This document shows, piece by piece, positions 3,877 through 31,619 of a DNA stretch of 44,392 nucleotides (the stretch's first letter is position 1; each line of letters opens with the position of its first letter). A program made the translations under genes and the position numbers. This DNA is from an uncultured Bacteroidota bacterium (GTDB lineage Bacteria; Bacteroidota; Bacteroidia; JABEUT01): the NCBI GenBank assembly GCA_903916255.1, contig CAIWVW010000144.1, positions 1 through 44,392 of the forward strand. The letters are read 5' to 3'. Below the pieces are notes generated by a model, which worked only from the letters and a program-made list of their open reading frames with translations, searched no databases and was not told the DNA's origin.

Positions 3877-4830
3877 TTATTGCCATGTGTTTCCGCTAAA
3901 AGCAGTTCTAATTTTTTCGGTTACACCGGTATCGACCATATTTTTGGCCAATAAAATCAAGTTCTTGGTGGCTTCTTCATTCGATATTCCATGGCCTACC
4001 AATACATTTCCATTTACGCCCAATATGGGTGAGCCCCCATGTATTTCGTAGTTGAACCTTTCGAAATAAGGGTCATTTATTTTTCTTCTTTTAATCAGTT
4101 TATAAAAAGCTTCGGCTTCTTTCAACACCACGTTACCCACAAAACCTTCACACACTATTACATCGGCATGTCCGTCGAAAAGGTCGCGTCCCTCTACGTT
4201 GCCAATAAAATTAATACTATCGTGGTTTTTCAACAATTGGTGGGTAGCCTGGGCTACAATATTTCCTTTTTCTTCCTCTTCCCCAATATTAAGCAAAGCG
4301 ACTTTGGGGTCGGGGGTTCCACATATATACTTGGTATAAACCTGCCCCAGCAATGCAAACTGGCAAAGCATTTCCGGGCGGCAATCGGCATTACTACCCA
4401 CATCCAACAATATTCCGGTTGACCCGGTTTCCATAGGAACCTGTGTAATAAGGCAAGGGCGCAATACGCCTTCAATGGCTTTTACGCTGTAAAGCGCACC
4501 CACCATCATAGCACCTGTGTTGCCATTGCTGGCAAAAGCATCTATCTTTTTATCTTTCAGGTATTTAAAACCAACTCCGATACTGGAATTTGGCTTTTGG
4601 GAAATGGCCCGCAAAGGCGCGTCGGCCATTTCAATTACTTCAGTGGTGTGGACGATTTCAAAATTATCGGGACTAACTCCATGTCCGCTAAGCAAAGGAA
4701 CAATTTGGTCCTTATCTCCAAACAGCACAAGTTTAACCTCGGCAGGAATTACATGTAAAGCTTTAACAGCTCCTCCTACGGTAGTTTTGGGGGCATAATC
4801 GCCACCCATTATATCTAGTCCTAATCTCAT
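3877..4830 (-). CDS. plsX: Phosphate acyltransferase PlsX
   Basis: Converts acyl-ACP and phosphate to acyl-phosphate, the acyl donor for PlsY in phospholipid synthesis; a peripheral membrane/cytosolic enzyme. The 317-residue length is normal. Family signatures are the N-terminal MRLGLDIMGGDYAP, NGNTGAMM, LLDVGSNADC, NIGEEEEKG and the C-terminal GGSPILGVNGN. It is second after rpmF in the conserved DUF177-rpmF-plsX(-fabH) order. About 107 nt separate it from rpmF, and that gap is almost entirely a word palindrome. The 3' end converges with the glycine-rich gene, where a weak 5-bp hairpin (CCTCT/AGAGG, 3861-3875) is the only terminator-like structure. Confidence 0.97.
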   Translation of the reverse strand: MRLGLDIMGGDYAPKTTVGGAVKALHVIPAEVKLVLFGDKDQIVPLLSGHGVSPDNFEIVHTTEVIEMADAPLRAISQKPNSSIGVGFKYLKDKKIDAFASNGNTGAMMVGALYSVKAIEGVLRPCLITQVPMETGSTGILLDVGSNADCRPEMLCQFALLGQVYTKYICGTPDPKVALLNIGEEEEKGNIVAQATHQLLKNHDSINFIGNVEGRDLFDGHADVIVCEGFVGNVVLKEAEAFYKLIKRRKINDPYFERFNYEIHGGSPILGVNGNVLVGHGISNEEATKNLILLAKNMVDTGVTEKIRTAFSGNTWQ

Positions 4831-4832
4831 AT

Positions 4833-4940
4833 AAAAAATGAATGAAAAGTGAAAAATTATAAATGAAATGTGAACAACGAAAAATCCATATTGCCCTTAT
4901 TTCTATTTTTCATTTTTAGCTTTTCATTTTTCACTTTTTA
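4833..4940. repeat. Word palindrome (TGAAAAGTGAAAAAT word) between rpmF and plsX
   Basis: Left arm 4833-4874 and right arm 4901-4940 are inverted runs of an AATGAAAAGTGAAAAAT-type word. The right arm contains the rpmF stop codon (4938-4940). It fills the whole gap between two genes normally co-transcribed, so it could form a large hairpin in the mRNA. Confidence 0.75.
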
Positions 4941-5123
4941 GGCTGAAACTGTTTTTTCAACTACCTGCTTGCCTCTGTAAAATCCGCATTCAGGGCATAC
5001 ACGGTGACTAAGAACCGGAGCTCCGCAATTGGCACATGTAGTGGTGGTTGCAGCGGTTGCTTTATAATTTGTCCTGCGTTTTCTTCCGCGGCTTTTGGAG
5101 TGTCTTCGTTTAGGATGTGGCAT
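4938..5123 (-). CDS. rpmF: 50S ribosomal protein L32
   Basis: A large-subunit ribosomal protein of 61 residues. The N-terminus MPHPKRRHSKSRGRKRR is canonical. A zinc ribbon is formed by Cys30/Cys33 (CANC) and Cys43/Cys46 (CPEC), i.e. the zinc-binding (C+) form. It lies 14 nt downstream of the DUF177 gene and upstream of plsX, the conserved ribosome/lipid junction. Its stop codon is embedded in the right arm of the word palindrome at 4833-4940. Confidence 0.98.
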   Translation of the reverse strand: MPHPKRRHSKSRGRKRRTNYKATAATTTTCANCGAPVLSHRVCPECGFYRGKQVVEKTVSA

Positions 5124-8609: not shown

Positions 8610-8689
8610 ATCGTCATTGCGAAGCAATCTTGCTCAATAGTTGTGTCCGAATTTTAAGAGATTGCTTCGCAAAGCCTCACAATGACGAT
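8610..8689. repeat. Dispersed CGTCATTGCGAAGCAATCT hairpin element, copy 1
   Basis: Left arm 8610-8630 (ATCGTCATTGCGAAGCAATC) pairs with right arm 8659-8689, with a few extra bases in the right arm. It lies in the convergent gap between the acidic protein and the SprT-like gene. Related copies are at 26815-26892 and 31591-31619, and a minimal form is at 24363-24378. Confidence 0.85.
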
Positions 8690-22515: not shown

Positions 22516-22589
22516 CTGCCACAGATTTCACAGATTTAAAGTCAACTTTTTTTTGTATTTCAATATTTAAACTGTGAAATCTGTGGCAA
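22516..22589. repeat. Palindrome (TGCCACAGATTTCACAG word) between tag and recN
   Basis: Left arm 22516-22540 (CTGCCACAGATTTCACAGAT) is almost perfectly inverted in right arm 22566-22589 (TTTAAACTGTGAAATCTGTG). The loop is about 25 bp, T-rich. It lies between divergent promoters. Confidence 0.8.
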
Positions 22590-22634
22590 GTTTTTAAATT
22601 GCATTCCAAAGTGCCTCTTTTTTTCTCATCTTTG

Positions 22635-22666
22635 CCTGTCCGTACCGATGGTAAATCCGGGCGGGC
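22635..22666 (+). repeat. GC-rich repeat upstream of recN (ATCCGGGCGGGC end)
   Basis: A GC-rich 32-nt patch (CCTGTCCGTACCGATGG then ATCCGGGCGGGC) directly before the recN start. The reverse complement of 22970-22998 inside recN shares its ATCCGGGCGGGC end exactly and its GTCCG-ACCGA start approximately. A CATCTTTG -7-like box precedes it at 22627-22634. Confidence 0.65.
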
Positions 22667-22672
22667 TTTTCC

Positions 22673-24358
22673 ATGTTACAGAAACTAAAAATACAGAATT
22701 ACGCACTCTTTGATTCGGTGGAGGTGGAATTCCCTTCCAACTTATCTATTATTACCGGCGAAACAGGTGCGGGAAAGTCTATATTATTAGGTGCTTTATC
22801 ACTTTTGTTGGGCCAACGGGCAGAAGGTGATTTGGTAAATGATAAATCTAAAAAATGTATTGTTGAAGGTATTTTTATAAGTGATTCCGAGGAAGTGAAA
22901 AACTTCTTTTCGCAAAATGACCTTGACTATGAGCATGAAATTACCATTCGCCGCGAGGTTTCCCCGGAAGCCCGCCCGGATGACTCGGTCGGACGGGGTA
23001 AATCGCGCGCATTTATAAACGATACACCAGTAACTTTAAATCAATTAAAATCGCTTACATCAAGGCTTATTGACATCCATTCACAACACGAAAACCTTGC
23101 GCTTAATGAAAGCGAATTTCAATTGTCGGTGCTGGATGCATATGCAGCGCATAAAACTACGTTGGCGGACTATAAACAAAAATTTGTCCGCTATAAAGCG
23201 GTAAGCAAAGAGCTGGAAGAGCTTATCAGCAAGGAAAATGAGGCAGCCAAAGAAAAAGATTACCTCGAGTTTCAGTTGAAGGAAATGCTGGACGCTAACT
23301 TAGTGGAAGGTGAAGAAAAAAAAGTGGAGGAAGAGTTGGAATTTCTTAACCATTCCGAGCAGATAAAAGATGCGCTGGTGAAATCAACAGGCATACTAAA
23401 AGCAGGTGATGATAATGTTTTGCATCTTCTTACAGATGTGAAAAACAGGTTAAATACCATTGCAGCATACAACCCAAAATTAGGCGAACTGCTTGAGCGG
23501 TTAAACGCTTCTATTATCGAACTGAAGGATATTGGCGCTGAAGTGGAGTTTCTGGAAGAGAAAATAAATTATGACCCGGCAAGGGTGGCTGTGCTGATGG
23601 AAAGATTGGAAAGCATTTATCACCTCTCGCATAAGCACAGGGTAAATACTGTTGCTGAATTATTAAAAATTCAGGATGATATTTCAGTAAGGTTGAATAG
23701 CCTTTCATCTTTGGAAACTACTATTGGAAAGTTGAATCTGGAAAAAGAATCGCTCCATAAGCAATTGAAAGCGCTGGCTGCAAAAATTAGCGCCGGAAGG
23801 GATAAGGTTATTCCCGGTTTGCAAAAGGATATTCAGAAAGACTTGATATTATTGGGTATGCCCGATGCCCAATTTAAAATAGAAAGAGTAACCGTTGAGA
23901 ACTTTACCAACAGCGGTACAGATGCTGTGCATTTTCTTTTCTCTGCCAATAAGGGGAAAGATTTGCGCGAGGTGGAGAAGGTAGCATCCGGCGGGGAATT
24001 ATCAAGGGTAATGCTGGTAATTAAATCGCTGATTGCAAAATATACCGAATTGCCAGCCATCATATTTGATGAAATAGATTCAGGCGTATCAGGTAAAGTA
24101 GCGGGGCAGGTTGCTGAATTGGTATTTAAGATAAGTAAATCAATGCAGGTGATGATGATTACCCACTTACCACAGATTGCCAGCAAAGGCGATGCGCACT
24201 TCCTGGTATATAAAAACAACGAGAAGAATAAAACCGTTACGCACATAAAACGGTTAACCTCCGGCGAACGTATTGAAGAAATTGCCCGTATGATAAGCAC
24301 CGACAAGCCCGGAAGTTCGGCTTTGAAAACGGCGAGCGAGCTGTTGGAAGGCAAGTAA
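22673..24358 (+). CDS. recN: DNA repair protein RecN
   Basis: An SMC-like ATPase for double-strand-break repair. 561 residues: N-terminal ATP-binding half with Walker A GETGAGKS (29-36), a central coiled coil (about 165-375), and a C-terminal half with ABC signature SGGELSRVML, Walker B AIIFDEIDSGVSG and MMITHLPQIAS. FINDTPVTLNQLKSL and LIDIHSQHENL are typical. The loop between RREV and KSRAFIND is longer than usual: residues 100-109 (ARPDDSVGRG) are encoded exactly by a GC-rich repeat that also occurs inverted just upstream of the gene. The start at ATG 22673 gives the standard MLQKLKIQNYALF N-terminus. It converges with the first NHL gene. Confidence 0.96.
   Translation: MLQKLKIQNYALFDSVEVEFPSNLSIITGETGAGKSILLGALSLLLGQRAEGDLVNDKSKKCIVEGIFISDSEEVKNFFSQNDLDYEHEITIRREVSPEARPDDSVGRGKSRAFINDTPVTLNQLKSLTSRLIDIHSQHENLALNESEFQLSVLDAYAAHKTTLADYKQKFVRYKAVSKELEELISKENEAAKEKDYLEFQLKEMLDANLVEGEEKKVEEELEFLNHSEQIKDALVKSTGILKAGDDNVLHLLTDVKNRLNTIAAYNPKLGELLERLNASIIELKDIGAEVEFLEEKINYDPARVAVLMERLESIYHLSHKHRVNTVAELLKIQDDISVRLNSLSSLETTIGKLNLEKESLHKQLKALAAKISAGRDKVIPGLQKDIQKDLILLGMPDAQFKIERVTVENFTNSGTDAVHFLFSANKGKDLREVEKVASGGELSRVMLVIKSLIAKYTELPAIIFDEIDSGVSGKVAGQVAELVFKISKSMQVMMITHLPQIASKGDAHFLVYKNNEKNKTVTHIKRLTSGERIEEIARMISTDKPGSSALKTASELLEGK
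22970..22998 (-). repeat. Inverted copy of the GC-rich repeat inserted in-frame in recN
   Basis: 29 nt (GCCCGCCCGGATGACTCGGT and following) read as ARPDDSVGRG in RecN. Its reverse complement matches 22635-22666, including a 12-nt exact block. It can itself fold as an imperfect hairpin (CCCGcCCG/CGGaCGGG). Confidence 0.65.
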
Positions 24359-31590: not shown

Positions 31591-31619
31591 CGTCATTGCG
31601 AGGCTTTGCGAAGCAATCT
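31591..31619 (+). repeat. Dispersed CGTCATTGCGAAGCAATCT element, half copy 3
   Basis: CGTCATTGCGAGGCTTTGCG followed by AAGCAATCT. It matches the right arm of the copy at 8610-8689 read in reverse complement. No opposing arm was found nearby. Confidence 0.75.

Follow-up and report, generated by a model that had tools for sequence, protein, structure and literature searches.

An in-frame palindromic insertion in recN from a family of very small, very probably mobile hairpin elements

The recN locus and its two palindromes

The window, that is, the whole stretch of DNA analysed here, is a 44,392-nucleotide contig of an uncultured Bacteroidota bacterium (genome G000, a 3.74 Mb draft of 149 contigs and 97% completeness). 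It contains on its forward strand an open reading frame of 561 amino acids (22673..24358), whose product matched the Pfam family SMC_N (E=5.3e-20) and had D. radiodurans RecN (4ad8) as its best PDB match (E=4.3e-55). This recN gene hosts, in frame, a 27-nt palindromic element located on the minus strand (22971..22997), which reads 5'-CCCGTCCGACCGAGTCATCCGGGCGGG-3' on its own strand and encodes ARPDDSVGR on the plus strand. A divergent copy of 31 nt (22635..22665, plus strand, 5'-CCTGTCCGTACCGATGGTAAATCCGGGCGGG-3') is placed between a putative recN promoter and the start codon. It was inserted directly after CATCTTTG (22627..22634, plus strand), a putative promoter element read from the sequence, which resembles the -7 element of Bacteroidota promoters (TAnnTTTG). 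With a covariance model based on 46 variants of the element, the recN copy scored 46.1 bits (E=1.8e-8) and the upstream copy 32 bits (E=1.6e-4). Rfam gave no match over the element.

The two copies matched over their whole length except for the variable inner loop (ACCGAGT versus TACCGATGGTAA), and a repeat search found a perfect inverted match of 14 nt between them (22655-22668 and 22968-22981, 100% complementary). The inverted GC-rich pair that the first-pass annotation had noticed in and upstream of recN is thus real, with slightly different boundaries: the upstream copy ends at 22665 and not at 22666, and the insertion, originally given as RecN residues 100-109, comprises a net nine residues (A100-R108, 22971-22997), G109 being ancestral. 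The GC content was indeed far above that of the surroundings, with 78% in the recN copy and 65% in the upstream copy versus 41% in the rest of recN and 40% in the window, where 28 of 44,365 27-mers are as GC-rich as the element. The 12-mer ATCCGGGCGGGC was found twice in the window with at most one mismatch (0.13 expected) and 11 times in the whole genome, compared with one occurrence of the reversed control.

The recN and upstream copies are two of the 12 in this genome and lie inverted within 305 bp of each other, an arrangement for which 0.011 pairs were expected. Tandem doublets of the element were also present in other genomes (L117, L120, L150), and together with the close inverted pair (22635-22997) they suggest local hopping. 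The intergenic region preceding recN contains two palindromes that are unrelated to each other; a 23-nt inverted repeat of the GCCACAGATTTCACAGATT type (22517-22588) is located just upstream of the upstream element copy.

Empty sites in related genomes and target preference

The nine residues corresponded to a gap in all 26 other full-length RecN proteins of relatives (a 27th match was a fragment and was not counted), including that of the 82%-identical sister species G002, and the relatives' proteins join SPE|GKSR or an equivalent directly at the insertion point. This agrees with the initial proposal that the loop is usually shorter, and no RecN loop of the same length made of unrelated DNA was found. 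In the DNA alignment with G002 (L052), the recN element appeared as a gapless 27-nt insert, and the upstream 31-nt copy likewise had a gapless empty site, CATCTTTG|CTTCTCCATG. The sites of further G000 inserts at C132, C52 and C121 were also empty in G002, as was that of the insert at C13 according to the coordinates of a match that spans the junction. Two G002 copies, one in a cysteine desulfurase gene (C121) and one at C24, were absent from the orthologous places in G000 (C34 and window positions 4628-5079), both of these alignments being less clean. Altogether, none of the eight tested sites (six G000 inserts and two G002 inserts) was shared. Since the sites differ between sister species, the element appears to have moved recently, as far as movement can be deduced from genome comparison. 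Gapless empty sites and insert-free relatives favour gain over loss, with loss in a single lineage being formally possible for any one site.

Copies were found between genes, inside CGTC-REPs and terminators, in copies of tRNA-Arg and, with the reading frame kept, in conserved proteins. Removal of the copies nested in CGTC-REPs (GCGAAG|CAATCTC) restored the repeat consensus exactly, and removal of those in tRNA-Arg(CCG) D-loops gave an intact tRNA. The target was either not duplicated or duplicated by at most one C. At 133 dereplicated sites, position +1 was C in 86% and position -1 was T in 4%, with weaker preferences for A at +2 and for T or C at +4. Hairpin loops were not supported as preferred targets, since the insertion point was no more often enclosed or unpaired than in controls, and local GC skew revealed no replication-strand bias (54 versus 63). 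The window itself contains CGTC-REP-like sequences at 8613-8686 and 31592-31603 (GTCATTGCGAGG), the known repeat class within which copies of the element are often nested elsewhere in the genus.

Could the palindrome instead be a functional RNA or DNA motif (a terminator, processing site or protein-binding site) that arose in place and was kept for its function? It can form a hairpin and frequently lies between genes, the upstream copy being located in the presumed recN leader, and the flanks of the sites were more structured than control sites (mean -9.7 versus -7.1 kcal/mol). However, this explanation is contradicted by gapless pairs of filled and empty sites at positions that the sister species do not share, by the presence of the element in tRNA-gene copies and, in several frames, within conserved proteins, and by its patchy occurrence among Bacteroidia (13 of 295 genomes, one of the 13 probably by chance), and we regard it as very improbable. 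We conclude that both copies at recN very probably belong to one family of extremely small, non-autonomous, mobile palindromic insertions, a judgement that concerns the elements and not their mover.

Structure and distribution of the family

The family has the layout CCCGTCCG - variable palindromic loop - CATCCGGGCGGG, with the consensus CCCGTCCG - inner loop - CATC - CGGGCGGG, and its members are mostly 26-34 nt long (27 nt in the host gene). The arms can form a hairpin with an outer stem of 8 bp and a conserved T.G wobble at pair 5. They were nearly invariant among the aligned copies, an invariance that is not independent evidence, since these copies were largely found by patterns requiring the arms; C-to-T changes at outer-stem positions 2 and 3 retain G.T pairs. 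The loop contains an inner mini-helix, for example GAAC..GTTC or GACC..GGTC, in which an inner pair alternates between A-T and C-G with pairing preserved, both sides being changed in 11 of the 46 variants. The covariation score of this pair was higher than in all 500 shuffles and all slid controls, and in a larger variant set its two columns were associated (Fisher p 5.6e-9). Folding of a single copy as DNA gave a simple hairpin of about -5 to -7 kcal/mol, which was unexceptional compared with shuffles, so the structural case rests on the covariation.

The pattern GTCCGN{3,20}ATCCGGGCGG detected 11 copies in G000 and 16 in its genus-mate G002, with no reversed control in either. The covariance model detected 12 and 23, respectively, and none in the genus-mate G006, whose genome is 99% complete. 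It also found 18 copies at E up to 0.5 in a CPR genome (Peribacteraceae), the weakest few of them being doubtful. A tight-pattern scan of 84,980 species genomes returned at least 114 stretches; among the matches listed, most came from Bacteroidota (Chitinophagaceae, Sphingobacteriaceae and some Flavobacteriia), and the other phyla were represented by Ca. Scalindua, Brocadiaceae and several CPR bacteria. Strict-pattern copies numbered 63 in Segetibacter sp. 3557_3, 31 in a Ferruginibacter MAG, 21 in Ca. Scalindua rubra, 17 in a Brocadiaceae MAG and 11 in a Peribacteraceae MAG, and the reversed control gave none in any of these five genomes and zero in nearly every genome overall. Anammox Planctomycetota carry around 20 copies; in a sample of 119 Planctomycetota genomes, a clear set of copies was present solely in the Scalindua genome chosen as its centre. 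Plasmid and phage collections contained no match to the element. Viral contigs gave twenty matches, many of which had loops unlike those of the family and are probably due to chance, and single matches in high-GC genomes (L091, L178) and in G328 and G416 were also regarded as chance.

The host genome is a draft and many carriers are MAGs, which might point to an assembly, adapter or binning artefact. Nevertheless, the element is carried by cultured isolates, among those listed Niabella defluvii, Segetibacter sp. 3557_3 and Pinibacter aurantiacus, and by a complete chromosome (one genome of the isolates is complete), and its loops and lengths vary from genome to genome; the probability of an artefact is therefore negligible. 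Copies were mostly 27 nt long in G000, G002 and G318, 28 nt in G312 and 31 nt in G298 (9 of 9), and of mixed length in the others. The preferences of genomes for loop type and length (eta2 0.37 versus a permutation mean of 0.10) were not equalled in any of 5000 permutations and represent genome-specific amplification. The length preference of individual genomes suggests recognition of the arms and of their spacing rather than of the loop.

It is plausible, although we lean towards doubting it, that a single homologous family of mobile hairpins of about 27 nt is currently active across Bacteroidota, anammox Planctomycetota and CPR bacteria. Its mover would then be a widely shared, unrecognised enzyme reading the GC arms and their roughly fixed spacing instead of the loop sequence, and wherever the element is 27 nt long, it would steadily add nine-residue loops to working proteins. 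If true, these elements would be among the smallest mobile DNAs known.

Protein insertions, known systems and candidate movers

The 27-nt form corresponds to nine codons and has a stop in one of its six frames; with five of six frames open, insertions into genes are survivable. In-frame copies were present in Pfam-recognised proteins of G000 (RecN, a bacterial phospho-glucose isomerase/SIS protein and a 4Fe-4S protein) and G002 (cysteine desulfurase), in TrpE, FAD monooxygenase, radical SAM and DUF2851 proteins of other Bacteroidota, and in the TGT of one Taylorbacteria genome and the S10 of one Nomurabacteria genome. Hence, the element is tolerated in protein-coding DNA, as had been proposed, and both the RecN alignment of relatives and the in-frame copies in other conserved proteins, in the host genome and elsewhere, agree with this. 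Coding DNA is not its sole location: the majority of copies lie between genes, in other repeats or in tRNA-gene copies. Whether copies in genes would always be in frame had been asked as well; their in-frame position follows from the usual length of 27 nt and the five stop-free frames. Copies with lengths divisible by three spanned an ORF in 18 of 66 cases, compared with 1 of 82 for other lengths, a difference that arises in part by definition, since any copy causing a frameshift destroys the ORF it would span, and that we use descriptively; with the same reservation, an ORF was hardly ever spanned by a copy of 28, 29 or 31 nt.

The commonest frame encodes A-R-P-D-(D/E)-x-(F/V)-G-R-G, and the encoded loop is rich in Pro, Gly and Asp, as in RecN. 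The cysteine desulfurase insert aligned with a loop that is a short turn in PDB relatives. In RecN, the insert lies between two conserved segments, the alignment with D. radiodurans RecN being gapped just before it, from which we infer that it probably forms a surface turn. The anticipated location in surface loops was examined by alignment alone and in these few cases. The recurrence of the same frame (ARPDD/ARPDE-PFGRG) across many unrelated proteins could be taken to mean that the nine-residue loop was selected for changing RecN function. Against this, the host proteins are unrelated, the inserts fall at alignment gaps or turns, and the same genome holds non-coding copies, and the bias towards this frame is consistent with tolerance of a soluble peptide that forms a turn; an adaptive role of the peptide is hence extremely doubtful. 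The Taylorbacteria TGT (L110, 2492-3274) contains, besides the element peptide, a second stretch, HSVIPAEAACPARGIQDSD, which has the appearance of a further insertion encoded by a repeat.

Palindromic insertions that code for protein are familiar chiefly from Rickettsia and Wolbachia, and the element had been likened to Rickettsia palindromic elements. RPEs (RPE-1 to RPE-10) are palindromic, mobile by comparison, and located both between genes and, in frame, within unrelated protein genes (PMC3733652, PMC10969869). Intragenic copies have also been reported for CGTC-REPs (RPE-4, RPE-6), which have no known dedicated transposase (PMC3733652, PMC10969869). The element, too, is palindromic and occurs in frame in several unrelated protein genes. 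However, RPEs are about 150 bp long (MITE review), or roughly 100-150 bp for the RPE-1 type, while the empty sites of the element define 27 or 31 nt, and RPEs, which we compared by description, were described from Rickettsia, whereas the element occurs in three phyla. CGTC-REPs are defined by an unpaired CGTC (or TGTC/CCTC) tag and an 8-9 bp stem starting with A-T pairs, as in RPE-4 and RPE-6 with their CGTC tag and A-T stem base. In contrast, the element has no unpaired tag, its CGTC string lies inside the paired outer stem, this stem is nearly all GC with C-G as its first pairs, and the element itself is found inserted inside CGTC-REPs. Because tag, stem base and size all differ, we did not file it under RPEs or CGTC-REPs: the analogy holds functionally, while size and architecture mark a different family.

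By their general description, yeast mitochondrial GC clusters are similar, being short, polymorphic, GC-rich palindromes in AT-rich DNA with one in-frame case in var1, but they are mitochondrial. Nearest in size are the small dispersed repeats (SDRs) of Nostoc and other cyanobacteria, which Elhai and colleagues reportedly described in 2008 as repeats of roughly 20-27 nt with mobility inferred from insertions in other repeats. By this description they resemble the element, which is nested in CGTC-REPs, but have different hosts. Cyanobacterial SDRs are mentioned in PMC3116915. The literature searched, with most subscription papers outside its coverage, yielded no earlier description of the family, which is apparently undescribed.

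REP/REPIN elements of the GTAG families, which are mobilised by RAYT (Y1 tyrosine) transposases, are likewise multi-copy imperfect palindromes of 20-40 nt that are sometimes intragenic. Mobilisation of the element by a host RAYT would fit its short, imperfectly palindromic form with the conserved bulge and wobble, the missing target duplication and the RAYT-like genes of most carriers. Nevertheless, the element consensus has no GTAG tag and no REPIN doublet organisation, and none of the examined Y1/RAYT genes was flanked by it (one lone copy occurred in L217 among the Y1_Tnp loci scanned), many having their own, different hairpins such as CCACGGCTTTTAAGCCGTGG. Furthermore, RAYT numbers did not separate carriers from non-carriers, and no Y1_Tnp match was found in the carriers G300, G306 and G311, all of them possibly incomplete MAGs. 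Because of the unflanked RAYT loci and these three carriers, we did not assign the element to RAYTs and consider such an origin unlikely. The own flanking hairpins of Bacteroidota RAYT-type genes (L199, L205, L206, L207, L210) were of the CCACGGCTTTTAAGCCGTGG and CCCCGACATTTATGTCGGGG types.

MITEs moved by DDE transposases produce target-site duplications of at least 2 bp, compared with 0 or at most 1 nt here, and the lack of a duplication fits HUH-type single-strand transfer better than DDE transposition. Our tentative scheme, in which we have limited confidence, is that an enzyme encoded at another place would act in trans, recognising the element in its hairpin form, probably as single-stranded DNA, and inserting it through a mechanism without target duplication, e.g. 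HUH-type single-strand transfer, and that selection would then remove gene-breaking insertions.

A different mover was suggested by four element-carrying tRNA-Arg loci that encode a small GIY-YIG-like nuclease beside tRNA-Arg: stand-alone homing-type endonucleases of this kind could spread the element via double-strand-break repair. Few other loci have such a gene nearby, however, and none was present at most intragenic and REP-nested copies, which makes this route improbable. Far smaller than the insertions of Rickettsia and Wolbachia, the element has the same effect in free-living Bacteroidota and, with the same arms, in two other phyla. The clean pairs of filled and empty sites between sister species, and the length differences between lineages (27, 28 and 31 nt), a natural experiment in which frame-spanning inserts occur almost only at multiples of three, open a long-standing question to direct testing, namely by what means such tiny palindromes move and with what frequency they remodel proteins. 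The family also provides a well-defined substrate for finding the mobilising enzyme.

The tRNA-Arg loci have a recurring organisation. Extra tRNA-Arg copies or fragments carrying the palindrome were found in L232 (G000 C149, 1-600), L154 (2600-3200), L108 (2420-3150) and L186 (850-1262). An intact tRNA-Arg(CCG), present in L232, L108 and L154, is followed by an ORF for a small GIY-YIG-like nuclease, and this organisation was seen in several genera. The palindrome occupies two recurring places in the tRNA-Arg copies, the D-loop and the 3' side of the anticodon arm/variable region, and the loci look like a tRNA-associated nuclease cassette combined with an insertion hot spot.
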